This document shows positions 1-10,489 of a stretch of 10,489 nt of DNA, piece by piece. The position numbers and the translations under genes were made by a program. The first letter of the stretch is position 1. Every line of letters starts with the position of its first letter. The stretch is taken from contig CAJVYZ010000042.1 of the NCBI GenBank assembly GCA_913009915.1, forward strand, positions 1 through 10,489, written 5' to 3'. Source of the stretch: an uncultured Gemmatimonadota bacterium (lineage in GTDB: Bacteria; Gemmatimonadota; Gemmatimonadetes; Gemmatimonadales; GWC2-71-9). The notes under the pieces are model-generated. The model had not been told where the DNA came from. It made no database searches and saw only the letters and a list, made by a program, of their open reading frames with translations.

Positions 1-415
1 CGTTCAGCCAGGCGCCGCGGCCCTTCTCGGCCCAGTACATCTCATCATTGATCGGCTGATAAACCAGGCCGGCGACCACCTTGCCGAAATGTTCCAGGGC
101 GATCGAAATCGCGAAATGGGGAATGCCGTGGAGAAAATTGGTGGTGCCGTCGAGCGGGTCGACGATCCAGACCAGCCCCTCGGCCGCAAGACCCGGGGAG
201 AGTTCTTCTCCGACGATGGAGGATTCGGGGGTCTCGGCCAGCAGGAGGTCGCTGATGAGCCGCTCCGCCGTCCGGTCCACCTGGGTGACGAAATCGGCGG
301 CTCCCTTGGTTGTCCAATCGGCCGGGTCGGACGGCGGACTGGCGCTACGGATGTACCCGGCCGCCGTCTGTGCGGCGCACGAGGCCAAGTCGAGTAAGTT
401 CAAGGGGGATAGCAT
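1..415 (-). CDS. suhB: Inositol monophosphatase family protein (SuhB-like), 3' end missing
   Basis: The reverse strand encodes the first 138 residues of an inositol-1-monophosphatase-type Mg2+-dependent sugar phosphatase; the reading frame is open to the left window edge, so about the C-terminal half (family length about 260) is missing. Visible motifs are DFVTQVD at residues 41-47, the metal-binding GEE at 69-71, and WIVDPLDGTTNF at 83-94, the family signature with both metal-ligand aspartates (D86, D89). The HGIPHFAISIAL stretch follows, as in SuhB proteins. The ATG at 415-413 is chosen because it gives a normal N-terminus and has a GAGGG-like ribosome site about 10 nt upstream. It is divergent from trpS with 36 nt between starts. 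Family membership is clear. The substrate (inositol phosphate, fructose-1,6-bisphosphate or another sugar phosphate) cannot be settled from this half. Confidence 0.93.
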   Translation of the reverse strand, partial: MLSPLNLLDLASCAAQTAAGYIRSASPPSDPADWTTKGAADFVTQVDRTAERLISDLLLAETPESSIVGEELSPGLAAEGLVWIVDPLDGTTNFLHGIPHFAISIALEHFGKVVAGLVYQPINDEMYWAEKGRGAWLN

Positions 416-416
416 C

Positions 417-445
417 TTGCAACCGTTCCCTCAGGTAGCTAGCTT
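417..445 (+). promoter_or_regulatory. Candidate trpS promoter giving a leaderless mRNA
   Basis: TTGCAA at 417-422 and TAGCTT at 440-445 are separated by 17 nt and look like -35 and -10 elements. The A of the trpS ATG is at 452, only 6 nt after the -10 box, which is where transcription would start. No Shine-Dalgarno sequence precedes that ATG, which fits a leaderless message. The -10 overlaps an 8-nt palindrome, AGCTAGCT (437-444), in the short gap shared with the divergent suhB-like gene. The promoter is inferred from sequence only. Confidence 0.45.
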
Positions 446-451
446 GGCCTG

Positions 452-1462
452 ATGCCACGCATCTTCTCAGGCATCCAACCTTCCGGAGAGCTCCACATCG
501 GGAACTGGTTGGGTGCGGTCAGGAACTGGGTCAATCTACAGTACGACTTCGAGTCGTTCTACTCGATCGTCGACCTCCACGCGGTCACCACCGGGGCTAC
601 CGACCCCGGCCACCTGGCGCAGCAAACGATGGATATGGCCATCGGGCTGTTGTCCGCCGGCATAGATCCGGAGAAGGCCACCCTGTTCGTCCAGTCGCAT
701 GTGCCGGCCCACTCGGAACTCATGTGGCTGCTCAACGCCGTGACCCCCGTCGGTGACCTCGAGCGGATGACGCAGTATAAGGACAAGTCCCGCGGGCTGA
801 AGAGTATCCCGGCCGGCTTGCTCAACTACCCTATTCTGCAGGCTGCGGATATTCTCCTCTACCGGGCCGATACCGTGCCCGTGGGCGAAGATCAATTCCA
901 GCACCTGGAGTTGGCCCGGGAAATCGCCCGCCGGTGGAACCAGCGATTTGGTGGCGGGGAGGCGTTCTTTCCCGAGCCGGTCGCCCGCAAGACCGAAGCG
1001 GTACGGGTCATGGGACTCGACGGCAAGGGCAAGATGTCAAAAAGCCAAGGGAACACCGTGGGGCTTCTCGATTCCCCCGACGACATCTGGCACAAACTCC
1101 GCCCGGCCATGACCGATCCGGCCCGCAAGACCCGGAAGGACCCCGGCGATCCGGACGTGTGCAACATCTTTGCCCTGCACGGTCATTTTTCTTCGGCCGA
1201 CACCTGCGGTATGGTTGCCGAGCAGTGCCGCACCGCGGGATGGGGTTGTCTGGATTGCAAACGGGTATTGGCCGACAACATCAGCGAGCGGTTCGCGCCG
1301 ATGCGGGAGCAAGCGCAGGAGTTGAAGGCGGATCCGCAGCGGGTCACCGACCTGCTGGCCCGCGGCGCCGAGCACGCGGCAGCAATCGCCAACGAGACGC
1401 TGGACGGAGTGCAGGCGTGCATGGGTCTGCTACCGCCGTTGGTGGTTTCGTCCACCGCCTGA
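452..1462 (+). CDS. trpS: Tryptophanyl-tRNA synthetase with predicted [4Fe-4S] cluster motif
   Basis: This class I aminoacyl-tRNA synthetase charges tRNA-Trp with tryptophan in the cytoplasm. The 336 residues match the usual bacterial TrpRS length. The HIGH-type signature appears as HIGN at residues 15-18 in the typical SGxLHIGN setting. The tryptophan-pocket and ATP-site region DTVPVGEDQFQHLELAREIA follows mid-protein, and KMSKS lies at 194-198. Four cysteines, C237, C259, C266 and C269, are spaced C-x21-C-x6-C-x2-C. This closely matches the [4Fe-4S] motif described for Thermotoga maritima TrpRS (C-x22-C-x6-C-x2-C), at nearly the same residue numbers; an extra C252 lies between. The start is supported by the family N-terminus and the adjacent -10 element rather than by a ribosome-binding site. 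A 25-nt gap separates it from the PilT-like gene, so the two may be cotranscribed. Confidence 0.97.
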   Translation: MPRIFSGIQPSGELHIGNWLGAVRNWVNLQYDFESFYSIVDLHAVTTGATDPGHLAQQTMDMAIGLLSAGIDPEKATLFVQSHVPAHSELMWLLNAVTPVGDLERMTQYKDKSRGLKSIPAGLLNYPILQAADILLYRADTVPVGEDQFQHLELAREIARRWNQRFGGGEAFFPEPVARKTEAVRVMGLDGKGKMSKSQGNTVGLLDSPDDIWHKLRPAMTDPARKTRKDPGDPDVCNIFALHGHFSSADTCGMVAEQCRTAGWGCLDCKRVLADNISERFAPMREQAQELKADPQRVTDLLARGAEHAAAIANETLDGVQACMGLLPPLVVSSTA

Positions 1463-1487
1463 ACGCCGCAGGCGCATTCGAGGATCC

Positions 1488-2576
1488 ATGGAAAAAATCA
1501 TCAAAGCAGCCGTCAAGCGAGGAGCCTCCGACCTGCACATCAAGGCAGGCGACGTCTTCCGTGCACGGGTGAATGGCGAACTGGTGCCGCTCACGAAGGA
1601 ACGCCTGACACCGGACCAGACACGCGCCATCGCGCTGAAACTCATCGCCAGCGAAGATGTCAGGCGGAGAATCGACCAGCTACAGGACTACGATTGCTCG
1701 TGGGGCATGCCCGGTGTCGGTCGGTTCCGGGTGAACATTCTGCGGCAGCGATCTTCCTTCATGGTGGTGATGCGCGTCATCCCGTTCGCGATCCCCAGCC
1801 TGGAGTCGCTGGGGGCCCCGGATTCGATTCTGCCGCTGGCGAACACCGATAACGGATTGGTTCTCATCGCGGGCGCCGGCGGCAGCGGCAAGAGTTCCAC
1901 GATCGCCGGCCTGATCGACCAGATCAACCGGAACCATCACCGGCACATCGTCACCATCGAAAGCCCCATCGAATTTCTCCACCGGGATCTCAAGTCTTCC
2001 GTAACCCAGCGGGAGGTGGGGATCGATACCGAGAGTGTCGTCAAGGGACTGCAGGCGGCCCTCCGGCAGGATCCCGATGTCATCGTCATCAGCGACCTCC
2101 CCGACCCTGAGACGCTTGACACCGCCATCACCGCGGCCGAGACCGGGCTGTTGGTCATCTCTTCCGTGCCGACGCCCGACGTCGTGACCACGGTGGAACG
2201 CGTGATTGCCATGATCCCGGCCGACGAACGCGAGATCGGGCGGGTCCGGCTGGCAGAGGTGTTGCGCGGTGTGGTGGCCCAGCAGTTGTTACCGCGAGCC
2301 GATGGAGAAGGACGGGCGCCGGCGTTCGAAGTCCTCGTGGGCACCGATCAGGTCCGCGACATTCTCAAGACCGGCGCGCCCGAGGCACTCCTCGCCGTCA
2401 TGGAGGCCGACAAGGACAGTCAGGGAATGCAGTCCTTCCAGCAGGAAATTGCCGAACTCCTTACCGAGGGCGTCATCGATACCAAGACAGCCGAGGCGGC
2501 CGGCGTGACGGCGGCGCCCAGGCGGCGCGCTCCTCGCAGGAAGCCGCGCACGCAAACCAAACGAAGTTCTTCCTGA
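1488..2576 (+). CDS. PilT-like secretion/twitching ATPase homologue with degenerate catalytic boxes
   Basis: The 362-residue protein aligns by eye along its whole length with PilT, the hexameric ATPase that retracts type IV pili at the inner-membrane base. The N-terminal PAS-like region opens with ASDLHI near residue 14. Walker A is GAGGSGKSST (129-138, K135 kept). The Asp box reads TIESPIEF (156-163) instead of TIEDPIEF. Walker B reads DPDVIVISD (195-203) instead of the usual DPDVILVGE, so the catalytic glutamate is aspartate. The His box reads AAETGLLVISSVPT (216-229), with both histidines replaced (L221, P228). The C-terminus ends in a basic Arg/Lys/Pro-rich tail. The start has GAGGA 4 nt upstream. 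No other pilus gene is in the window. It could be a weak or regulatory ATPase paralogue rather than a retraction motor; family membership is secure, function is not. Confidence 0.85.
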   Translation: MEKIIKAAVKRGASDLHIKAGDVFRARVNGELVPLTKERLTPDQTRAIALKLIASEDVRRRIDQLQDYDCSWGMPGVGRFRVNILRQRSSFMVVMRVIPFAIPSLESLGAPDSILPLANTDNGLVLIAGAGGSGKSSTIAGLIDQINRNHHRHIVTIESPIEFLHRDLKSSVTQREVGIDTESVVKGLQAALRQDPDVIVISDLPDPETLDTAITAAETGLLVISSVPTPDVVTTVERVIAMIPADEREIGRVRLAEVLRGVVAQQLLPRADGEGRAPAFEVLVGTDQVRDILKTGAPEALLAVMEADKDSQGMQSFQQEIAELLTEGVIDTKTAEAAGVTAAPRRRAPRRKPRTQTKRSSS

Positions 2577-2606
2577 GGCTCCTGACAAGCCTGGGCGGCG
2601 GTACCC

Positions 2607-3692
2607 ATGTCCCAACCGCGTGAACTCCTCGAGTTGCTCCTGTCGAACCCCCGTGAGGCGGGTACCGACGGCGCGCTGCAGGCTCGGCGCCTCCTGAGCG
2701 AACACCTGTCGCAACTGGGATTCGACGTCGAAGAACAGCCGCTCCGCTTCTCCGCGGCCAGTCTCACCGCCTACCCGCTGTTCGGGGCCGGCCTCGGTTG
2801 GCTCATGCTGATCCAGATTCTTCTACTCACTGTCCCGGCGGCACCGTCATGGGCTGCGCTGGCTACGTGGGGCATCGGCGTGGCGGCACTCGGCGTCCTC
2901 CTCGCCGGCGTGAGCCTGGGGTGGGCACCCCTGGGCGGCCAAATCCGGGACTCGGCCAATCTGATCGCCACCCGGGGGGGGATGGACCAGGTGCGCCGCT
3001 GGATCGTGGCCCACTACGACGCCAAGGCACAAGGGATATCGCTGGCCGGCCGGCTCGCCGCCATGATCTACGCGGGAGCGGTCGTTCTCCTGATCACCGG
3101 CCTGGCGGTGAAACGTCTCTGGGGCCCGATCGACGTGGATGTCGTGGCGGGCGCCGCCGTCCTGGCCCTGATCGCATGCGGATTGGCAGGGCGGGGCGCC
3201 TTGCGGGGTAGCTCGCCCGGCGCTCGCGATAACGCCACCGGGCTGCTGGCTGCCGTCACCCTGGCGCAGCAGAGCAGCGACCCCGGTACCGGATTCCTGT
3301 TTACCAGTGCCGAGCAGTTCGGACTCGTCGGATCCAGAATCTTCGCCCTCACCTACGGCACCATGTTGCCGGGGGCCGAGGTGATCAACCTCGACACCCT
3401 GGATGATAGGGGCCCGCTCAGGGTGTGGTATCACACCGGCGCCGGCGCCGGCCTCGCCCGCGAGGTGGCCAGGAGGCTGCAGCACGATTCCTTGGCGGCC
3501 CGAACCCGGCGGACGTCACTGTTTTTGGCGGTGGACAGCGTGCCGCTGGCCCGGTCGGGTGCAGCCGCCGTGACGGTGACCAGGTTCGACTGGTCGACAC
3601 TACGCCTGGTACACACCGCCAGGGACGGGGCCGAGGGCCTCGATTTCGCTACCGCTGAGGCGGTCGGACGGGCGTTGGCGCAGGGCCGATAG
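2607..3692 (+). CDS. M28-family metallopeptidase homologue with interleaved membrane segments
   Basis: This 361-residue protein shows the ordered landmarks of M28 (aminopeptidase Y/S-type) zinc exopeptidases: AHYDAK (H136, D138), SPGARDNATG (203-212, bridging D208), TSAEQFGLVGS (base E236), NLDTLDD (D263) and LVHTARD (H336). Position 237 is glutamine where the usual EE pair supplies a zinc ligand. Four hydrophobic stretches split the fold: two before the first metal motif (about residues 57-78 and 84-108) and two between the HxD and the PGARDN motif (about 149-170 and 176-197). It is therefore probably an integral membrane protein. No signal peptide is evident at the N-terminus. The start is the first ATG of the frame with a weak G-rich ribosome site, 30 nt after the PilT-like gene. 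The substrate is unknown, and activity is uncertain because of Q237. Confidence 0.75.
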   Translation: MSQPRELLELLLSNPREAGTDGALQARRLLSEHLSQLGFDVEEQPLRFSAASLTAYPLFGAGLGWLMLIQILLLTVPAAPSWAALATWGIGVAALGVLLAGVSLGWAPLGGQIRDSANLIATRGGMDQVRRWIVAHYDAKAQGISLAGRLAAMIYAGAVVLLITGLAVKRLWGPIDVDVVAGAAVLALIACGLAGRGALRGSSPGARDNATGLLAAVTLAQQSSDPGTGFLFTSAEQFGLVGSRIFALTYGTMLPGAEVINLDTLDDRGPLRVWYHTGAGAGLAREVARRLQHDSLAARTRRTSLFLAVDSVPLARSGAAAVTVTRFDWSTLRLVHTARDGAEGLDFATAEAVGRALAQGR

Positions 3693-3707
3693 CGGTCGTT
3701 TGACCGC
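3692..3707. other. Short inverted repeat after the M28 gene
   Basis: GCGGTC (3692-3697) and GACCGC (3702-3707) form a perfect 6-bp stem with a GTTT loop, starting at the last base of the M28 stop codon. No T-run follows, so it is a poor intrinsic terminator. It covers the -35 element of the candidate purA promoter and could instead be a regulator site. Neither role is established. Confidence 0.3.
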
Positions 3708-3728
3708 CAATGGTTGCTGCCTTAGGTT
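3700..3728 (+). promoter_or_regulatory. Candidate purA promoter
   Basis: TTGACC (3700-3705) and TAGGTT (3723-3728) are separated by 17 nt and resemble housekeeping sigma-factor -35 and TANNNT -10 elements. The gap between the M28 and purA genes (129 nt) is the longest in the window, which supports a separate promoter here. Transcription would begin near 3735, giving a leader of roughly 85 nt. No start-site data are available. Confidence 0.4.
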
Positions 3729-3804
3729 GCAGTCGTCACGGCGGCTCCCTCCCGGGTGCCGTCTTCTTTGTGCCGGCCACTCCGGCGGCCTGCGCCCACG
3801 CGTC

Positions 3805-3810
3805 GGAGGA
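3805..3810 (+). promoter_or_regulatory. Ribosome-binding site deciding the purA start
   Basis: GGAGGA here is 11 nt before the ATG at 3822 but overlaps the in-frame ATG at 3810, which it therefore cannot serve. It favours the 3822 start over both 3810 and the more distant in-frame ATG at 3756. Confidence 0.5.
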
Positions 3811-3821
3811 TGAGTTACCGC

Positions 3822-5102
3822 ATGTTCGGACCGAAAACGTACTGTGTGGTCATCGTCGGCGCCCAGTGGGGTGACGAGGGCAAGGGAAAGATCGTCGACG
3901 TCATCGCCGAGCAAGCCGACCTGGTAGTACGGTACCAGGGGGGAGCCAACGCGGGACACACCGTCGTGACCGGCGACAACGAATTCATCCTTCATCAGAT
4001 CCCGTCGGGCATCCTGCACCAACGCACAGTATGCGTCATCGGTAACGGCGTGGTACTCGACCCCGAGACGTTCTTCACGGAACTCGACCAGCTGGTGGAG
4101 CGGGGAATCGACGTTACTTCGCGAGTGTTCGTGTCCGATCGTGCCCACCTGGTGATGCCCTACCACAAGCTGCTGGATACCGAACGAGACAAGAGCCAAA
4201 AAATCGGCACTACCGGCCGGGGCATTGGGCCTGCCTACGAGGACAAGACCGGGCGGCGCGGGCTCCGGGTGGGCGACCTGCGCCACCCGGACCAACTGCC
4301 CGATCTGCTGCGTGAGCGGGTGGATCGAGTCAACCAGCTGCTCCATATGATGGGCTCGGAGGCACGGGCCTCACTCGATCAGTCGATGGCGCTCCTAAGC
4401 GATCTGACCCCGCGTATGCTCCCCCTTGCGACCGACACCGGACTCCTGGTGCACCGAGCGCTCGCCGACGGCAAGCGGGTACTCCTCGAAGGGGCCCAGG
4501 GTGCTCTCCTCGACGTGGACCATGGGACCTACCCATACGTCACCTCATCCAACACTACGGCGGGCGGTGCCGTGACGGGGACCGGGATCGGTCCCACGGC
4601 GCTCGACGAAATCGTTGGCGTGGTCAAGGCCTACACCACCCGCGTGGGTAACGGCCCGTTGCCCACCGAGGCCGAAGGTGCCTTGGCCGATCAGCTCAGG
4701 GAACACGGCGGCGAATTCGGGGCCACCACCGGGCGCCCGCGGCGCTGTGGCTGGTTCGATGCCACGGTGGCACGCTACTCGGTGCGCATCAACGGCCTGA
4801 CCGCCCTGGCGGTCACCAAGCTGGACGTCCTCGACCACTTTGCCGAGATTCCTGTCGGCGTGGCCTACCATCTGGACGGGGAGCGCCTGGAGGAAATGCC
4901 GGCCGACCTCGAAGTCCTGAACCGGGTGCAGCCGCAGTACGAAGTCCTCCCAGGGTGGCAACAACCCACCAGTGGGGCACGGCGGCTGGCGGACCTACCC
5001 CTGGAAGCCAGGGCCTACCTCGACCGGCTGCAGGATCTGCTGGGCACTCCCATCCGCTACGTCAGCGTGGGAACCCGGAGGGACCAGATCATCGAGGTCT
5101 GA
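3822..5102 (+). CDS. purA: Adenylosuccinate synthetase
   Basis: PurA makes adenylosuccinate from IMP and aspartate with GTP hydrolysis, the first committed step from IMP to AMP, as a cytosolic dimer. Numbered from the ATG at 3822, the protein has 426 residues, close to E. coli PurA (432). The GTP-binding GAQWGDEGKGK lies at 13-23 with the catalytic aspartate D18. NAGHTVV carries the catalytic H46. The IMP-site GTTGRGIGPAYEDK, the EGAQGALLDVDHGTYPYVT segment, and TTGRPRRCGW are all present. The C-terminal guanine-site motif reads VGTRRDQI, whereas many family members have a proline after the glycine. The frame extends upstream to an ATG at 3756, but that extension is low-complexity, Arg/Pro-rich and outside family homology. 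It is probably transcribed from its own promoter and unrelated to the aromatic operon downstream. Confidence 0.96.
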   Translation: MFGPKTYCVVIVGAQWGDEGKGKIVDVIAEQADLVVRYQGGANAGHTVVTGDNEFILHQIPSGILHQRTVCVIGNGVVLDPETFFTELDQLVERGIDVTSRVFVSDRAHLVMPYHKLLDTERDKSQKIGTTGRGIGPAYEDKTGRRGLRVGDLRHPDQLPDLLRERVDRVNQLLHMMGSEARASLDQSMALLSDLTPRMLPLATDTGLLVHRALADGKRVLLEGAQGALLDVDHGTYPYVTSSNTTAGGAVTGTGIGPTALDEIVGVVKAYTTRVGNGPLPTEAEGALADQLREHGGEFGATTGRPRRCGWFDATVARYSVRINGLTALAVTKLDVLDHFAEIPVGVAYHLDGERLEEMPADLEVLNRVQPQYEVLPGWQQPTSGARRLADLPLEARAYLDRLQDLLGTPIRYVSVGTRRDQIIEV

Positions 5103-5164
5103 GGCATCGGCCAGTTTAGTAAAGCTTCTTCATAAAATATTCACAGTGCCTTTAGGGGTCTCCG

Positions 5165-5194
5165 GCAAAATTTGAACGGTGATTCAAATTTTGC
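5165..5194. promoter_or_regulatory. Perfect palindrome, likely TetR-family operator
   Basis: GCAAAATTTGAA (5165-5176) and its exact reverse complement TTCAAATTTTGC (5183-5194) flank a 6-nt spacer. The site is 14 nt upstream of the regulator's start codon in a 106-nt AT-richer gap (5103-5208) that also holds TTCACA (5140-5145), a possible -35 element. TetR-family dimers bind such dyads, and autorepression of a downstream operon is their commonest arrangement. A single exact dyad in an otherwise GC-rich region argues against chance. The exact promoter elements could not be fixed. As RNA the dyad could also form a hairpin, but it lacks a following T-run. Confidence 0.75.
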
Positions 5195-5208
5195 TGGGAG
5201 CACTCTGA

Positions 5209-5835
5209 ATGGCTTCTTCCGTGCCGGTCGTCGGCCGGTCTCCCCACATCCAGGAAAAGCGTCAGCGCCGCCAGGCGGAGATTCTGCGCGCCGCCATGAT
5301 GGCGTTTCGCTCCCGGGGCTACCACGCCACTACCCTGGAGGACATCGCCGACCGGTTGGGCGTTCGCAAGACAGCCCTGTACCACTACTTCCCGGACAAG
5401 GACGCCATTCTCTTCGCCTGTCATCAGCAGTCGCTGTCGGAGCTGTCGGGGCATCTAGCGGCAGCGCGCCGGAAGTATGCTGGTGCCACCGCGCGCCTGC
5501 GTCACATCATCCTTGAGCACGTTCGCGTCATGACCGACAGCGGCGAGGAGTCACCGCTCGCCTTTGATATCCCGGCGCTGTCATCGCCCCTGCAACAACA
5601 GGTGATCGAGGCCCGTGACCGTTACGAGCGCTCGCTCAGGAGGATCATCGCCGAGGGGGTCCGCAGCGGAGAGTTCCGGCCGGTGGACCCGAAGATCGCG
5701 GTGTTCGTTCTGCTCGGCGCGATCAACTGGATCGCCCGCTGGTATCAGCCGCGCGGGAGCGTGGATCCCGCTGCCCTCGGTCAACAATTTGCCGACCAAC
5801 TTCTTGGAGGAATGTCATGTCCCCCGCAACCTTGA
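5209..5835 (+). CDS. TetR-family transcriptional regulator of the aromatic operon
   Basis: The 208-residue protein has a TetR-type N-terminal DNA-binding domain. A basic arm (QEKRQRRQAEIL, about 15-26) leads into the helix-turn-helix at about 42-61, with the family-typical TTLEDIADRLGVRKTALYHYF. The C-terminal ligand domain ends in a helix pattern (INWIARWYQP) reminiscent of acyl-CoA-responsive members such as KstR2, so a CoA thioester inducer (perhaps benzoyl-CoA or a ring-cleavage product) is a reasonable guess. The start has GGGAG 8 nt upstream. Its last 19 nt overlap the hydrolase gene, coupling the regulator to the pathway it probably represses, and the palindrome sits immediately upstream. 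Well-known benzoyl-CoA regulators are of other families (BzdR, BadR, AadR, BamVW). The family call is certain; the ligand is inferred. Confidence 0.92.
   Translation: MASSVPVVGRSPHIQEKRQRRQAEILRAAMMAFRSRGYHATTLEDIADRLGVRKTALYHYFPDKDAILFACHQQSLSELSGHLAAARRKYAGATARLRHIILEHVRVMTDSGEESPLAFDIPALSSPLQQQVIEARDRYERSLRRIIAEGVRSGEFRPVDPKIAVFVLLGAINWIARWYQPRGSVDPAALGQQFADQLLGGMSCPPQP
5806..5810 (+). promoter_or_regulatory. Ribosome-binding site for the hydrolase, inside tetR
   Basis: GGAGG lies 6 nt before the hydrolase ATG at 5817. The nearby ATG at 5812 is in the regulator's own frame, near its C-terminus, so the site sets the hydrolase start at 5817 and creates the 19-nt overlap. Confidence 0.7.
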
Positions 5836-6881
5836 CGCGGCCGTTCCCGAGCCGTGCGTCCGACACCTTCGAGTTCCAGGACATTCTCTACCACAAGGCG
5901 GACGGCGTGGCCCGGATCACCATCAACCGGCCCCAGGCGTACAACGCCTACTCGACGGCCGCGTTGGAGGAATTGGCCACGGCGTTTCGCGACGCGAGCT
6001 TCGACGACGCCGTGGGGGTCATCGTCTTTACCGGCGCCGGCGACCGCTCCTTCTGCACCGGTGGCGACGTGAAGGAATACGCCGAGGCGTACATCGACGT
6101 CCCGCGCGATTACTGGAAGTACATGGCGCTGTTCCGCAGCTATATCGAGAGCATCCTCAACACCGGCAAGCCGGTGGTGGCCCGGCTGAACGGCATGGCG
6201 GTGGGCGGCGGCAACGAGAGCCAGTTGGCGTGCGACCTCACGGTGATGGGTCAGCACGCCATCATCAAGCAGGTTGGGACCCACGTCGGCTCGGTGGCCT
6301 GCGGCGGTTCTACCCAGTGGCTCCCGCTGATCGTCGGCGACAAGCGGGCCCGCGAGATCCTGATGCTCAACGAGCCCATTTCGGCCGCCAAGGCCCTGGA
6401 ATGGGGACTGGTCAACTGGGTCGTGCCGACGGTGCGGCGCGGGGACGAGTGGTTGCCCGACGCATCACCGGCGGACATTCGCAAAGCTCAGAAGGGTGAG
6501 GATGGGCTGAGCATCGATCTGAGCCAACTCGACAGCTTCACGGACGACATAGCGCGCAAGCTGCTGGCCTCGTTCCCGGAGTGCACCCGCTACACCAAAC
6601 AACAGGTGAATTTCTGGAAGGACTTGGCGTGGAGCGCGACGGTGCGCCACGCGCAGGACTGGCTCTCCCTCCACTACGTCTGTTGGGAGCCGGCCGAGGG
6701 TATGAACGCCTTCGTCGAGAAACGGAAGCCCGATTTTGCCCTGTTGCGGCAACGCGCCGCCGAGGGTGGATCGTCGGAGGCGCCATGGGGGCCGCCCGTC
6801 AAGGGGTGCCAGGCGTGCGGCGCCAAGAATCTTCCACGGACCCACGAGTACTGCGGATCATGCGGCCAACCGCTGTCGTAA
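5817..6881 (+). CDS. oah: 6-oxocyclohex-1-ene-1-carbonyl-CoA hydrolase (Oah/BamA family) with C-terminal zinc-ribbon-like tail
   Basis: This crotonase-fold enzyme would add water to 6-oxocyclohex-1-ene-1-carbonyl-CoA and open the ring to 3-hydroxypimelyl-CoA, the hallmark step of anaerobic benzoyl-CoA breakdown. It has 354 residues. The first oxyanion-hole segment is SFCTGGDVKEY (F79 to V85 core), and the second is MAVGGGNE (127-134). The following QVGTHVGSVACGGSTQWLPL and the REILMLNEPISAAKALEWGLVN stretch are characteristic of Oah/BamA and not of ordinary enoyl-CoA hydratases. The long C-terminal helical region also fits this subfamily. Unusually, residues 331-349 carry CxxC-x11-CxxC (C331, C334, C346, C349), a small zinc-ribbon-like tail I do not recall in characterised Oah or BamA. 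The gene overlaps tetR by 19 nt and the dehydrogenase by 22 nt. The subfamily call is strong; the substrate is inferred from homology and operon. Confidence 0.88.
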   Translation: MSPATLTRPFPSRASDTFEFQDILYHKADGVARITINRPQAYNAYSTAALEELATAFRDASFDDAVGVIVFTGAGDRSFCTGGDVKEYAEAYIDVPRDYWKYMALFRSYIESILNTGKPVVARLNGMAVGGGNESQLACDLTVMGQHAIIKQVGTHVGSVACGGSTQWLPLIVGDKRAREILMLNEPISAAKALEWGLVNWVVPTVRRGDEWLPDASPADIRKAQKGEDGLSIDLSQLDSFTDDIARKLLASFPECTRYTKQQVNFWKDLAWSATVRHAQDWLSLHYVCWEPAEGMNAFVEKRKPDFALLRQRAAEGGSSEAPWGPPVKGCQACGAKNLPRTHEYCGSCGQPLS

Positions 6882-7573
6882 CCGGAGCCGCCAGTGGTAT
6901 CGGCCGGGAACTGGTGGCGGCGTTGCAACACGACGCCTGGGTCGCCGGGTTGGACCGCGATCCTGTCGACGACGACTCTCCCGCGGCGGTGCACTTCCGC
7001 GTCGACGTCACCGACCGGAATGCGGTTGGCGATGTCATCGACAAGATCGCCGACGAGCGCGGAGGGATCGACTGGGTCATCTGCGCCGCCGGGATCATCC
7101 GGGACCGCGTGAGCTGGAAGATGGAGGGCGACGAGTGGGATGACGTCATCCAGGTGAACCTCACCGGCGCCTTCAACGTGGTGCGGGCCTCGCTGGCAAT
7201 GCTACGCCGTTCACGGGCCGGGCGCGTGGTGTTCATCGGATCCATCAACGGCACCCGCGGGGGCTTTGGTCAGGCCAACTACGCGGCCTCCAAGGCAGGC
7301 CTGGTAGGACTGGCGCGATCCCTGGCCCTCGAGCTGGCCCGCGACGGCGTGACGGTCAACGTGGTGACTCCCGGCTTCATCGAGACACCCATGACCCGCA
7401 GCATCCCGCGGGAAGCCCTGCAACGGGCGATCGCCCGCACGCCCCTCGGCCGAATGGGGTTGCCGGAAGACGTGGCCGCCGCGGTGCGGTTTCTCTGCAG
7501 CGAGGAGAGCGGGTTCGTGACCGGTGTCGTGTTGCCGGTAGATGGGGGACAACTCCTGGGAGCAACACCATGA
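6860..7573 (+). CDS. Short-chain dehydrogenase/reductase, probable 6-hydroxycyclohexenecarbonyl-CoA dehydrogenase
   Basis: A classical SDR of 237 residues. The cofactor motif TGAASGIG lies at 8-15, and an acidic residue ending strand 2 (GLDRD) suggests NAD(H). The NNAG motif is CAAG here. The catalytic tetrad is N100, S128, Y141 and K145 (YAASK), and the C-terminal VLPVDGG is typical. It sits between the ring-opening hydrolase and the dienoyl-CoA hydratase, exactly where the oxidation of 6-hydroxycyclohex-1-ene-1-carbonyl-CoA to the 6-oxo compound is needed. In Thauera that step uses Had, a zinc alcohol dehydrogenase, and no such gene is present here. The ATG at 6860 gives the normal SDR N-terminus; the frame runs further upstream only as antisense-free overlap with oah. 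It overlaps oah by 22 nt and dch by 4 nt (ATGA). An alternative is a BadH-like 2-hydroxycyclohexanecarboxyl-CoA dehydrogenase. Confidence 0.85.
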   Translation: MRPTAVVTGAASGIGRELVAALQHDAWVAGLDRDPVDDDSPAAVHFRVDVTDRNAVGDVIDKIADERGGIDWVICAAGIIRDRVSWKMEGDEWDDVIQVNLTGAFNVVRASLAMLRRSRAGRVVFIGSINGTRGGFGQANYAASKAGLVGLARSLALELARDGVTVNVVTPGFIETPMTRSIPREALQRAIARTPLGRMGLPEDVAAAVRFLCSEESGFVTGVVLPVDGGQLLGATP

Positions 7574-8334
7574 GTAGCGACATCCGAGTGGCGGTCGTGG
7601 ACGGCGTCGGCCGGCTGACGCTGGACCATCCACCGCTCAACATCCTGACGCGCCAGGCTATGCGGGAGCTACGCGAGACCGTCGCCGCCCTCGAAGGTGA
7701 CCCGGAGGTACGGGCCATTCTCCTGGGCGCGGAGGGCAAACACTTCTCCGCGGGGGCGGATGTGGCGGAGCACCTCCCGCCAGAATACCAGGTGCTGATC
7801 CCCGAGTTTCTCGACACCGTCCGTGCCATCCGAGGCGCGGCCGTCCCCGTCATCGCCGCCGTCCAGGGACGATGTCTCGGAGCCGGCTTCGAGTTGGTAC
7901 TGGCCGCGGACATGATCGTGGTCGCCGAGGATGCCGTCCTGGGCCAACCGGAGATTCAGCTGGGCGTTCTGCCGCCGGCGGCGTGCGCCCTGTTGCCGGC
8001 CCGGTGCGCCTGGGGAACAGCCATCGAGATCGTGTTGGGTGGCGACCCAATAACGGCCCAGGACGCGTATCGGGCCGGACTGGTCCAGCGGGTGGTTCCC
8101 GGCGAGGCCGTGGTCGATGAAGCGTTGGCGCTGGCGCGGCGCTTGGCGCGTCACAGCGGTGCCGTCATCCGTCTGGGGAAGAAGGCCATGCTGGAGGCGG
8201 CCTCCACCGGGGTGGTGAGGGGGCTCGAACGGGCCGGCGAGATCTACCTCGACGAACTGATGGCCACAGAAGACGCGCTCGAGGGTCTCGAGGCCTTCGG
8301 GGAGAAGCGCTCGCCAGTATGGAGGCATCGATGA
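7570..8334 (+). CDS. dch: Cyclohexa-1,5-diene-1-carbonyl-CoA hydratase (Dch family)
   Basis: A 254-residue crotonase-family enzyme that would hydrate the cyclic dienoyl-CoA product of benzoyl-CoA reductase to 6-hydroxycyclohex-1-ene-1-carbonyl-CoA. The oxyanion-hole segments are KHFSAGADV (57-65) and GRCLGAGFE (100-108). GQPEIQLGV contains E128 at the usual catalytic glutamate position. Beyond generic crotonase motifs it shares, from memory of Thauera Dch, the AEGxHFSxGAxVxEH pattern, LGQPEIQLGV followed by PPAACALLP, and the C-terminal YLDELMATEDALEGLEAF. These together favour Dch over fatty-acid enoyl-CoA hydratases. The start is the ATGA overlapping the SDR stop. The end overlaps the reductase gene start (ATGA at 8331-8334). 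Confidence in the specific substrate is good because of the neighbouring reductase and hydrolase. Confidence 0.87.
   Translation: MSSDIRVAVVDGVGRLTLDHPPLNILTRQAMRELRETVAALEGDPEVRAILLGAEGKHFSAGADVAEHLPPEYQVLIPEFLDTVRAIRGAAVPVIAAVQGRCLGAGFELVLAADMIVVAEDAVLGQPEIQLGVLPPAACALLPARCAWGTAIEIVLGGDPITAQDAYRAGLVQRVVPGEAVVDEALALARRLARHSGAVIRLGKKAMLEAASTGVVRGLERAGEIYLDELMATEDALEGLEAFGEKRSPVWRHR
8321..8325 (+). promoter_or_regulatory. Ribosome-binding site deciding the bcrC start
   Basis: GGAGG lies 5 nt before the ATG at 8331, which forms an ATGA overlap with the dch stop codon. An in-frame ATG at 8319 would start inside this site and has no ribosome site of its own, so 8331 is preferred. Confidence 0.65.
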
Positions 8335-9512
8335 CGGACCGGCAATCTATTCCCGAGGTGTTTCCGGAATGGCGCGACCGGGATATCGACGAGGTGTTGT
8401 ACCAGTGCCGCGAACTGCTGGAGGACATGACCTTCCCGACCGTACAACGGTGGCGTGCTGCGGGCGGGAAGGTGGTCGGGCACTTTCAGGTGTATTTCCC
8501 CGAGGAAATCGCTCACGCCGCCGGCGCACTGCCGTTCAAGGTGCGCGGCGCCCCGGTGGAGCCGATGCAGGCCGATTCGCGCTTTGGATCCTACTTGTGT
8601 TCGATCATCAAGACCTCGCTCGAGTTGGTGTTGAGCGGCCGGGTCGACATGGAGATGTTCGTCACCCACCCCATCTGTGATGCGGCGCGGAACATGGCGG
8701 CGGTGTGGGGGCGGAACACGGAGTACCCGTGCCAGATTCTCTACCTGCCGCAGAACGCCAACTCGCAGCACGCCAGCCGCTACCTGACCGGGGAGTACCA
8801 CCGCCTCAGGCGCTCGATCGAGGACGTCACCGGGGCGACGATCACCGACGACGACCTGCGGGCGTCGCTCGCCGTGTTCAACGAGAACCGGGCACTGCTC
8901 CGCGAACTGTATGTCATCAAGCGTGAATCCCCCTGGCAGATCTCCGCTGAGGATGCCTACGCGCTCATGGCCGTGGGCGGAATGATCCCCCGCGAGGAAC
9001 ACAACGCGCTGCTACGGCATAGCCTGCCGCTCATTCGTCAGCGTGGCGCCAAAGTTCAGGACCGAATCCGCGTCGTGTTCGAGGGCGCGTTCTGCGAGCA
9101 GCCGCCGCTCGACCTCATCCGGGCCATCGGCCGCTCGTGCTACGTGGTCGATGACGACTTCCTCATCGGGCTCCGCTGGCTGGTGGACGACGTTGCGGTC
9201 AACGGCAATCCTGTCGAGGCCCTCGCCGGGGCCTACCTGGAACAATCGACCTACAGCCCGGTGCAGCACGATCTGCGCAAGCCCAAGGAGCGCATGTTGC
9301 TCGAGCGAATCGAGCGATCCGGGGCCACCGCGGCCATCGTCACCGCCGCCAAGATGTGCGAACCGGGGCTGGAGGAGCAGGTCACCTACACTCGAGCCCT
9401 CGACGGGGCCGGTGTGCCGTACTTCGTGAGTGAGTTCGAGGAAAACATGACCAGCTTCGATCACCTGGAGATCCAGCTGGAGACGTTCGTCGAGAACCTG
9501 TTGTTCGACTAG
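8331..9512 (+). CDS. bcrC: Benzoyl-CoA reductase subunit, BcrC/BzdN type (2-hydroxyacyl-CoA dehydratase D family)
   Basis: This 393-residue protein belongs to the HgdA/HgdB-like family whose pairs hold the active-site Fe-S cluster of ATP-dependent benzoyl-CoA reductase, which reduces the aromatic ring to a cyclic dienoyl-CoA at very low potential. The N-terminal half has the family's VYFPEEIAHAAGALPF segment. Three cysteines sit at family-typical places: C90 (GSYLCSIIK), C116 (HPICDAARNM) and C343 (AAKMCEPGLEEQ). The QADSRFGSYLCS context recalls Azoarcus-type BzdN more than Thauera BcrC; I judged this from memory without an alignment. It is followed after 13 nt by the BcrB/BzdO-type partner, the order seen in bcrCBAD, badDEFG and bzdNOPQ. 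The alternatives are other dehydratases of the family, which the Dch and Oah neighbours make unlikely. Confidence 0.86.
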   Translation: MTDRQSIPEVFPEWRDRDIDEVLYQCRELLEDMTFPTVQRWRAAGGKVVGHFQVYFPEEIAHAAGALPFKVRGAPVEPMQADSRFGSYLCSIIKTSLELVLSGRVDMEMFVTHPICDAARNMAAVWGRNTEYPCQILYLPQNANSQHASRYLTGEYHRLRRSIEDVTGATITDDDLRASLAVFNENRALLRELYVIKRESPWQISAEDAYALMAVGGMIPREEHNALLRHSLPLIRQRGAKVQDRIRVVFEGAFCEQPPLDLIRAIGRSCYVVDDDFLIGLRWLVDDVAVNGNPVEALAGAYLEQSTYSPVQHDLRKPKERMLLERIERSGATAAIVTAAKMCEPGLEEQVTYTRALDGAGVPYFVSEFEENMTSFDHLEIQLETFVENLLFD

Positions 9513-9525
9513 GACTGGTGACGCC

Positions 9526-10394
9526 ATGACCGAGACCACGATCATCGGACGAGGAAACGCGGAAGGCGCCCGGCTGTTCCGGGAGTGGTTCGACGGCCTG
9601 GGGCAGGCCGCGGCCGAAGACCGATCAGCCGCCTACGTGTTCGTGATGGGGAGCCTGGTGGAACTGCTGCGCGTGTTCGACTTCCCCATCGTCTTCCCGG
9701 AAATCAATTCTCTGCAAACCGCGGTGCGCCGCGTGGCGCACGAATATCTCGACGAGGCAGAGGACTACGGGTACTCGCCCGATATCTGTGGTTACGTCAA
9801 GGCCGATGTGGCGGTGCAGCTGCGCGGGGGCCAGCACCCCATGGGACAGATTCCCCGGCCGGGGCTGGCGGTCTACACCAACGCCTGCAACACCTACATC
9901 AAGTGGGCCGAGATCTGGGAGCGGATGTACCAGACGCCGACGTTCACGCTCGACGTGCCCGGGACACGCATGGCCGGCGGCCAGACACAGGCCGGCGATC
10001 CGGACTTCGAGAACGACCGGCGTTACGTCGAGGCGCAGGTTCGGGACCTGATCCCCCTGTGCGAGTCGGTGAGCGGGATCGCTTTCGACATCGACCGGCT
10101 CCGGGAGACACTCGGCTACGCCAATCGGATGAATCGCTCGTGGAAACGTTTGCTGGAGCTGAACCAGAGCCGTCCCTCCGTGTTCAACGCCCTGTCCGAC
10201 GGCACCATCTATCTGGGCGTGGCCAACGGCTTCCGCAGCACGCCCGAGGGGGCGCAGTACTTCGAGGATCTGGTCGAGGAAATGGAGTACAAGGCCCGGG
10301 AGGGCGTCGGCACCCTCACAGAGGAACAGTACCGCCTCGTGTTCGTCGGGGTGCCGTGCTATCCCATCTTCCGGCGATTCAACGAATTGTTTAC
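9526..10394 (+). CDS. bcrB: Benzoyl-CoA reductase subunit, BcrB/BzdO type, truncated by adapter
   Basis: About 289 genomic residues remain of a protein that is usually about 430-450 long. It is the partner of the preceding subunit in the dehydratase D / benzoyl-CoA reductase family. Near the N-terminus are LVELLRVFDFPIVFPEINSLQ and DICGYVKADV (C88), both typical of BcrB/BadE/BzdO. C121 lies in TNACNTYIKW, and C278 in VGVPCYPIFRRF, giving the three expected cysteines. The true sequence stops at the phenylalanine codon 10390-10392. The codon straddling 10393-10395 and all later residues come from adapter sequence, including the frame's stop at 10459-10461, so they must not be annotated as protein. 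The start lies 13 nt after the bcrC stop and has only a weak GGTGA ribosome site. The A- and D-type ATPase subunits are expected beyond the missing end. Confidence 0.87.
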
Positions 10395-10460
10395 AGATCG
10401 GAAGAGCACACGTCTGAACTCCAGTCACACTGATATATCTCGTATGCCGTCTTCTGCTTG
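10395..10460 (+). other. Illumina TruSeq adapter (sequencing artefact)
   Basis: From 10395 the sequence is the TruSeq indexed adapter: AGATCGGAAGAGC, then the ACACGTCTGAACTCCAGTCAC portion, an 8-nt index ACTGATAT (10429-10436, which I recall as TruSeq index 25), then the P7 end finishing in CTTCTGCTTG. The window's genomic sequence therefore ends at 10394. In-frame translation gives the well-known contaminant peptide beginning DRKSTRLNSSH. Confidence 0.99.
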
Positions 10461-10489
10461 AAAAAAAAAATTCTATTTTTCTTATCTTT
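10461..10489. other. Poly-A run and low-quality read tail (artefact)
   Basis: Ten As directly follow the end of the adapter, then a T-rich 19-nt tail of near-random low complexity. This is what a read shows after running off the end of a short library molecule. It is not a terminator or genomic feature. Confidence 0.95.

Follow-up and report, generated by a model that had tools for sequence, protein, structure and literature searches.

An Mbd-type class I aryl-CoA reductase operon with a divergent Oah-like gene in an uncultured Gemmatimonadota bacterium

Introduction

Which pathway is encoded by a compact run of six genes at the end of a contig from an uncultured Gemmatimonadota bacterium, and is it a known kind of system? 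Class I anaerobic ring reduction is best known from proteobacteria. The stretch of DNA analysed here (the window) comprises all 10,489 nucleotides (nt) of contig C42 (CAJVYZ010000042.1), which belongs to a 3.47-Mb bin of 676 contigs that is 76.5% complete. A preliminary description, made from the letters and open reading frames (ORFs), had interpreted the run as a benzoyl-coenzyme A (CoA) central-pathway operon. Our analysis showed that it is indeed an operon for an Mbd-type class I aryl-CoA reductase, that is, a known kind of system and not a new one. What is new is that relatives of the locus carry either of two ring-opening pairs, canonical (Had and Oah) or divergent (here called Had' and Oah'), which are unmixed in the loci seen. 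With a probability of about 0.82, we consider the locus to be the 5' part of an inducible operon for degrading an aromatic acid anaerobically, through its CoA thioester, in a member of the Gemmatimonadota, with the divergent Had' and Oah'. The chief point of interest is the role of these two proteins.

Results

Layout of the locus

The features of the locus are as follows.

5165-5194, no strand: perfect inverted repeat, probable operator (repeat search and recurrence)
5209-5835, plus strand: TetR/AcrR-family regulator, 208 aa (ORF; Pfam TetR_N and TetR_C_24)
5817-6881, plus strand: Oah', predicted divergent crotonase-family ring hydrolase, 354 aa, with a C-terminal CxxC...CxxC (profiles, alignment)
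6860-7573, plus strand: FabG-like short-chain dehydrogenase (SDR), 237 aa (profiles)
7570-8334, plus strand: Dch-like dienoyl-CoA hydratase (crotonase), 254 aa (profiles; recurrence in TetR-type loci)
8319-9512, plus strand: Mbd-type class I aryl-CoA reductase gamma subunit, MbdN/BcrC-like (PDB matches, tree)
9526-10394, plus strand: Mbd-type aryl-CoA reductase beta subunit, MbdO/BcrB-like, 3' third missing (PDB matches)
10395-10489, no strand: Illumina TruSeq adapter and tail, non-genomic (adapter match)

In gene order, the NCBIfam and Pfam families are TetR, crotonase (Oah/MenB-like), SDR, crotonase (Dch-like), HGD-D, and HGD-D. The first three gene overlaps, computed from the coordinates, are 19, 22, and 4 nt. 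The overlap between the Dch-like and gamma genes is 16 nt from the first ATG (8319) and 4 nt (ATGA) from the ATG at 8331, the latter being the more likely start. A gap of 13 nt separates the gamma and beta genes, and the TruSeq P7 adapter begins at 10395, so that the last genomic base is 10394. The ORF coordinates and the adapter position thus bear out the six genes, the overlaps, the gap, and the last genomic base of the preliminary description, and the gene order agrees with its view of a compact operon headed by a TetR gene.

The locus was compared with its relatives in a set of 81 rows, consisting of the window and the best 80 of 460 matching loci (L numbers denote loci, and C numbers contigs of the bin). 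The order TetR-Oah'-SDR-Dch-BcrC recurs in Gemmatimonadota loci including L069, L072, L073, L088, L102, L103, and L122, and an SDR-less TetR-Oah'-Dch-BcrC order was found in the Gemmatimonadota loci L057, L074, L080, L083, and L101.

Reductase subunits

The top PDB match of the gamma protein, with 517 bits over 384 residues, was MbdN, the corresponding subunit of 3-methylbenzoyl-CoA reductase, followed at a distance by HadC (111 bits), BzdN (95 bits), and 7yyl, a 'Dehydratase family protein' (41 bits). The identity of the gamma protein is 56% with MbdN, 34 and 36% with two Bcr-type proteins from the same order, 27% with BzdN, and 23% with HadC. The 290 available residues of the beta protein matched MbdO with 358 bits (next best, 87 and 51), and a full-length relative from L057 reached 508 bits.

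Among the NCBIfam models, BcrC (TIGR02263) ranked first for the gamma protein with 270 bits (cut-off 421), ahead of HadC (139) and double-cubane reductase (109); the Bzd-type model TIGR03190 gave 102 bits (cut-off 454). The truncated beta protein scored 143 bits on TIGR02260 (cut-off 487). Since MbdN itself gets 230 bits on the BcrC model, the low score of the gamma protein is not a sign of a foreign family. Seven distant relatives from the same order were also scored on this model. Six of them reached 471-492 bits (the remaining one 407), so that the order contains class I reductases from both branches. A tree of gamma proteins in quick form, in which the long rows HadC, BzdN, L032, and MbdN make deep placements unsure, placed the seven Bcr-type rows on one side of a branch (99) and MbdN on the side of the window, within the 80 loci (fork support 94). 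The window protein paired with L053 (91), and BzdN and HadC fell outside on very long branches.

Cys94, Cys120, Cys259, and Cys347 of the gamma protein are invariant in all 81 rows. Three of them (Cys94, Cys120, and Cys347) align with three of the six cysteines given as BzdN double-cubane ligands in an excerpt of PMC11971306. The MbdN cysteines at 94, 120, 259, 274, and 347 are all present in the window protein, which speaks of presence only and implies no ligand role in MbdN. In the beta protein, the positions of the BzdO ligands Cys95 and Cys128 are cysteines, as judged by eye from the L057 alignment and the window translation, and the third lies beyond the contig end.

A BcrB-like gene follows BcrC in 73/73 loci with at least 600 nt of downstream DNA, and the ATPase subunits A and D were found downstream in each of the 59 loci for which at least 3.2 kb is available. 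In L057, BcrB is followed by two genes whose products match MbdQ (418 bits) and MbdP (311 bits). The ATPase subunits of the window are expected beyond its adapter-cut end.

Judged by sequence kinship, both window subunits are members of the Mbd branch within the class I benzoyl-CoA reductases. This supports the earlier assignment of the two genes to catalytic subunits of a class I aryl-CoA reductase, and two of the three observations that had been named as potential refutations, a placement with dehydratases in a tree and a lack of A/D subunits downstream, were not made.

The mbd cluster of Azoarcus (Aromatoleum) sp. CIB (MbdONQP, MbdR) is the closest system in reductase kinship, which extends to all four subunits (two from the window and two from L057-like relatives); MbdN is 56-64% identical to the clade of the window. 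The cluster is also alike in combining a TetR-family regulator with upper-pathway enzymes, but its reductase genes lead the operon, whereas those of the window come after the hydrolase gene. Bcr-type reductases (TIGR02263), also present in Gemmatimonadota of the same order (L026-L031), resemble the window enzyme as class I enzymes with shared cysteines and with C, B, and ATPase genes in a row, but differ in the 34-36% identity and the curated cut-off of 421 bits, against 270 for the window protein. BzdNO of the bzd cluster is likewise a class I reductase with three shared cluster cysteines, but differs in the 27% identity and in three cysteines replaced by Q57, L282, and S313 in the window.

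Two ring-opening pairs

The best of all models for the protein of the second gene was Oah/BamA (TIGR03200), with 212.5 bits and a cut-off of 464; MenB and BadI gave 181 and 171 bits. A canonical Oah was found in ten loci (L053, L062, L086, L097, L098, L099, L104, L124, L128, and L130), all ten scoring 520-574 bits, above the cut-off, with 34-40% identity to the window Oah'. The Had of L053 is canonical as well (459.5 bits on TIGR03201, cut-off 338.65). Had', a Had-like medium-chain dehydrogenase/reductase, is encoded in the same genome on contig C445, where an adapter cuts off its start, and shares 74% identity with the Had' encoded after the reductase genes of L057. The partial C445 gene scored 194.5 bits and the full L057 gene 254.6 bits on TIGR03201, both below the cut-off.

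Among the 81 loci, 32 carry Oah', ten carry canonical Oah, none carries both, and 39 have neither in the available DNA. Both members of a pair were present in 28 loci and, counted without regard to kinship, 19 of these had Had' with Oah', nine had canonical Had with Oah, and none was mixed. The weak Had matches of L059 (31%) and L064 (27%) were put in neither class, and the 28 do not include L062, where only Oah was seen, or L089, where only Had was seen.

Five canonical loci (L053, L086, L098, L104, and L130) carry a TetR orthologue (56-63% identity), a Dch-like protein (52-62%), and window-type reductase genes, together with an SDR of 38-48% identity; no TetR orthologue was found in the available DNA of the other five. 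Because these five loci share the TetR-Dch-reductase chassis with the window, Had' and Oah' look like a divergent pair standing in for canonical Had and Oah. The two pairs are also alike in superfamilies and in 58 positions conserved in both hydrolase groups; 18 positions are fixed differently. They differ in that Oah' is 34-40% identical to Oah and carries a zinc-ribbon-like C-terminal CxxC...CxxC tail, found in 31/31 Oah' and 0/10 canonical Oah, and in that Had' falls below the Had cut-off. The alignment and the primer comparison below used 31 of the 32 Oah' sequences (L114 was dropped).

Oah'-like genes (56-65% identity over partial genes at stretch ends) also lie approximately 9-10 kb from a Bcr-type BcrC in L168-L171, and Oah' is thus not bound to the Mbd-type reductase. 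These four stretches are Bcr-type reductase clusters of other Gemmatimonadota of the order and also contain a thiolase gene.

The bamA primers were compared with both groups. The best site of the reverse primer had 5-7 mismatches in 31/31 Oah' genes versus 1-3 in 10/10 canonical genes, and the forward primer gave no separation (4-8 versus 0-6 mismatches). If Oah' is a ring hydrolase, the bamA polymerase chain reaction (PCR) assay would probably overlook it.

Dch-like protein and SDR

The protein of the fourth gene matched TIGR03189 (Dch) best, with 173 bits (cut-off 292.5), as compared with 167.5 bits for the general enoyl-CoA hydratase model, which ranks first for the Dch-like protein of L113. 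The third observation named as a potential refutation, a grouping of the hydratase with fatty-acid enoyl-CoA hydratases, is neither borne out nor countered by these near-equal scores. The Dch-like gene recurs upstream of BcrC in TetR-type loci.

An SDR match (E 1e-3) was absent from L057, L074, L080, L083, and L101 within the 11-21 kb at the locus. Had' is present in four of these loci (L057, L074, L080, and L101), and the contig of L083 ends before that point. The 38-48% identity suggests that the SDR of the five TetR loci with the canonical pair is perhaps not the same SDR. The SDR gene of L065 and L092 is flanked by genes for a MaoC-like hydratase and a thiolase, suggesting a role in beta-oxidation. 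For the window SDR, we consider such a role, as a 3-hydroxyacyl-CoA dehydrogenase acting after ring opening, probable.

Regulator and candidate operator

A perfect 30-bp inverted repeat, GCAAAATTTGAA-N6-TTCAAATTTTGC, was found at 5165-5194, 14 nt before the TetR start, with the core TTTGAAN6TTCAAA at 5171-5188. The core has one match in the window versus 0.09 expected (up to two mismatches). With up to one mismatch the site is unique in the available part of the genome, but a backwards control pattern also gives one site, which is chance level, so that the genome-wide count is no evidence. The case for an operator rests on the place of the site and its recurrence. The latter was studied upstream of 18 TetR genes of at least 50% identity in the 81 loci, with the window, the source of the pattern, included and with L089 (41%) and L113, L120, and L131 (24-27%) left out. 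The best site had 0-2 mismatches in 13 cases, three in four, and five in one, and 0/300 shuffled sets reached the observed mismatch sum. Sites with 0-2 mismatches accompany both kinds of ring-opening pair. We regard the palindrome as the probable operator of the TetR protein.

According to an excerpt of PMC4424350, MbdR is a TetR-family repressor of mbd in Azoarcus sp. CIB that is released by 3-methylbenzoyl-CoA. The window protein scored 39 bits against MbdR (4uds), and 26 distinct PDB sequences scored higher. The operator given for MbdR in the same excerpt is ATACN10GTAT and not TTTGAAN6TTCAAA. We therefore rejected orthology with MbdR; the window also differs from the mbd cluster in that its operon begins with the TetR gene.

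Discussion

Proposed pathway

The kinship of the subunits, the gene order in relatives, the segregation of the pairs, and the recurrence of the palindrome argue for an inducible operon of anaerobic aromatic-acid degradation. From here on we infer the substrate, the inducer, the repression, each enzyme activity, and C445 as the continuation of the operon. The TetR-family protein would bind the palindrome at 5165-5194 and repress the operon, and an aryl-CoA would probably release it, by analogy with MbdR. The Mbd-type reductase (gamma, beta, and two ATPase subunits past the contig end) would then use ATP and a low-potential donor to reduce the ring of the aryl-CoA, the Dch-like protein would add water to the reduced product, Had' would oxidise the hydroxyl group, and Oah' would open the ring hydrolytically. 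The SDR would probably act as 3-hydroxyacyl-CoA dehydrogenase on the ring-opened product. The placement of C445 after C42 follows the gene order in relatives. NarG is encoded elsewhere in the genome (C30:4921-8496; 1416 bits, above the cut-off), which would suit a nitrate reducer with a class I reductase and is counted in favour of this reading; CtaD was not found in the available part of the incomplete genome.

Four elements of the preliminary description stood: the reductase, the compact operon, the leading TetR gene, and the expected A/D subunits. Four others have to be revised. TetR control is not a novelty, as MbdR already controls mbd (PMC4424350, excerpt), and the hydrolase, with 212 of 464 bits, is not a canonical Oah. 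The gene order is scrambled rather than wholly reversed, because Had' is located at the far end in relatives. The SDR is probably not a ring dehydrogenase substituting for Had, since five relatives are SDR-less at the locus and a Had-like gene, present in four of these, follows the reductase genes; the genome under study has its own Had' on C445.

Several points weigh against the proposed pathway. The Dch-like, Oah', and Had' proteins all score well below their curated cut-offs, and the gamma protein has Q57, L282, and S313 at the positions of BzdN Cys36, Cys263, and Cys293, which are also missing from MbdN. The beta gene is incomplete at the contig end, and no PF01869 match above the cut-off was found in the 76.5%-complete genome, the best being a 28.5-bit stretch on C199; nor was a ferredoxin found, although no search was aimed at one. 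C445 may not continue C42, and approximately 3 kb would be missing between them. The Fisher p of 1.4e-7 for the Had/Oah segregation, like the 19/9/0 count, ignores kinship among the loci, and in L035, which is not among the 81, genes for TetR, an SDR, the reductase, and Had' occur with no Oah match in 19.9 kb. On the regulatory side, L098 is without a good operator site (five mismatches at best), no sigma-70-like promoter was found at 5050-5300, and the inducer is a guess because the TetR protein is not an MbdR orthologue. The best match to benzoate-CoA ligase (TIGR02262) is below the cut-off and on a partial frame.

Alternative interpretations

The nature of the substrate can be viewed in two ways. 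The operon may encode an ordinary benzoyl-CoA pathway whose natural substrate is benzoyl-CoA, with Oah' and Had' as lineage-specific forms of the same two enzymes and the Mbd kinship silent on methyl groups; this falls within our interpretation, and we lean slightly towards it. It agrees with the Oah'-like genes located about 10 kb from a genuine Bcr-type BcrC in L168-L171 and with the acceptance of canonical Oah/Had by the same TetR chassis in the five loci named above, but among characterised reductases the nearest comes from the 3-methylbenzoate pathway, and the pairs never mix in the 28 loci with both members. A methylbenzoate-type pathway is possible but rather doubtful. It would explain why the best relatives are 3-methylbenzoyl-CoA reductase subunits, and the placement of the methyl-6-ketocyclohexene-carbonyl-CoA hydrolase of Azoarcus CIB (CCH23022.1) as an outgroup to BamA sequences (PMC3794298, excerpt) suggests that a divergent hydrolase goes with such a pathway. 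However, Oah'-like genes also occur near Bcr-type reductase genes. It is conceivable, but on balance improbable, that Oah' and Had' form a second, biochemically distinct anaerobic ring-opening route acting on a different intermediate (e.g. a ring-substituted one or another regioisomer), a route that would occur across Gemmatimonadota, Chloroflexota, Acidobacteriota, and Zixiibacteriota and escape the bamA PCR marker with which surveys track anaerobic degradation of aromatics.

It is very unlikely that the HGD-D proteins are a 2-hydroxyacyl-CoA dehydratase or double-cubane reductase and that the crotonases and the SDR serve fatty-acid beta-oxidation. The proteins do share the Pfam family PF06050 with these enzymes, and the second crotonase is barely nearer to Dch than to general enoyl-CoA hydratase (173 vs 167 bits). 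Against this, HadC and 7yyl gave 111 and 41 bits versus 517 for MbdN, NCBIfam ranked BcrC first (270, with HadC at 139 and double-cubane reductase at 109), and two different ATPase subunit genes follow in 59/59 relatives. With MbdO likewise far ahead for the beta protein, we rejected the dehydratase identity and retain the aryl-CoA reductase operon.

Occurrence and significance

A search with the gamma subunit in 395 sampled Gemmatimonadota genomes gave matches at 1e-40 in 60, of which 43 were strong (at least 549 bits, the genome studied here included), 16 weak (34-43% identity, one with an internal stop), and one a fragment. The phylum labels of the metagenome-assembled genome (MAG) records of the best 80 of 460 loci, taken at face value, include Chloroflexota, Acidobacteriota, Planctomycetota, Eisenbacteria, Zixiibacteriota, Marinimicrobia, Pseudomonadota, and others. 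Plasmid records contained no gamma relative of at least 60% identity (best, 31%).

Excerpts of earlier reports describe benzoyl-CoA degradation genes in some Gemmatimonadota MAGs (PMC10581226) and a class I reductase in Chloroflexi (PMC5736913), and the presence of such genes in these phyla is thus not new in general terms. In the excerpted text of PMC10936416, no bcr or bam genes are reported for 37 FCB representatives, and PMC10803450 contains none of the phylum names searched for. Among the papers listed by the literature searches, no title or abstract opening describes the Mbd-type operon, the Oah'/Had' pair, or the operator for Gemmatimonadota. With the recurring palindrome, a regulator-promoter pair becomes open to testing in a phylum of which very few members have been cultured.

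Contig ends and neighbouring genes

Untrimmed adapter occupies 10395-10489 of the window and is likewise found at the ends of L162 and L163. It lies near both ends of contigs C445 and C199. The adapter core was present in 11 of the 165 fetched loci, all 11 from the bin of the window, and was absent from the stretches from C390 and C305. As the core recurs across the contigs of the bin, adapter-cut contigs are common in this assembly, and gene truncations at these contig ends are artefacts because the contigs end in untrimmed Illumina adapters.

On C445 (L162), a hemerythrin-like gene (1813-2283, minus strand) lies approximately 30 nt after Had'. Such a gene follows Had' in six (L041, L048, L101, L102, L103, and L122) of the 12 Gemmatimonadota-type loci that have Had' after the reductase genes, the others being L035, L057, L069, L074, L080, and L088. 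Hemerythrin-like genes are also found downstream of reductase genes in some other loci, and the genome has three PF01814 genes in all. One reading is that the protein functions in oxygen sensing or in protecting the oxygen-sensitive reductase.

In many loci, a protein of approximately 100 residues with two invariant cysteines in 20 aligned copies is encoded after the D subunit. Its motif, GWERRF...LYxxLGxEV...CxxC...YTRK, was seen in several phyla (L057:13266-13589, L074:14195-14527, L065:14227-14532, and others). There was no match to it in L101, L102, and L103; none of five scanned copies had a Pfam family, and no PDB fold matched (best E 1.0).

N- and C-terminal parts resembling benzoate-CoA ligase on TIGR02262 were found at C382:2820-3560 (183.5 bits) and C305:5-739 (295.7 bits); a contig break may have divided a single gene here. 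In L055, L075, L078, L087, and L124, a second and distant HGD-D set (24-28% identity to the MbdO query) lies within approximately 10 kb of the Mbd-type genes; four of these five loci have an activase-like gene with it, and in L075 it adjoins an AMP-binding protein with a DUF2889 domain.

The front part of the window (1-5102) holds ordinary neighbours. By profile, 1488-2576 encodes a PilT-family ATPase (359 bits, cut-off 319) and 2607-3692 an M28 peptidase; tryptophanyl-tRNA synthetase, adenylosuccinate synthetase, and a partial inositol-monophosphatase-like gene were recognised by eye.

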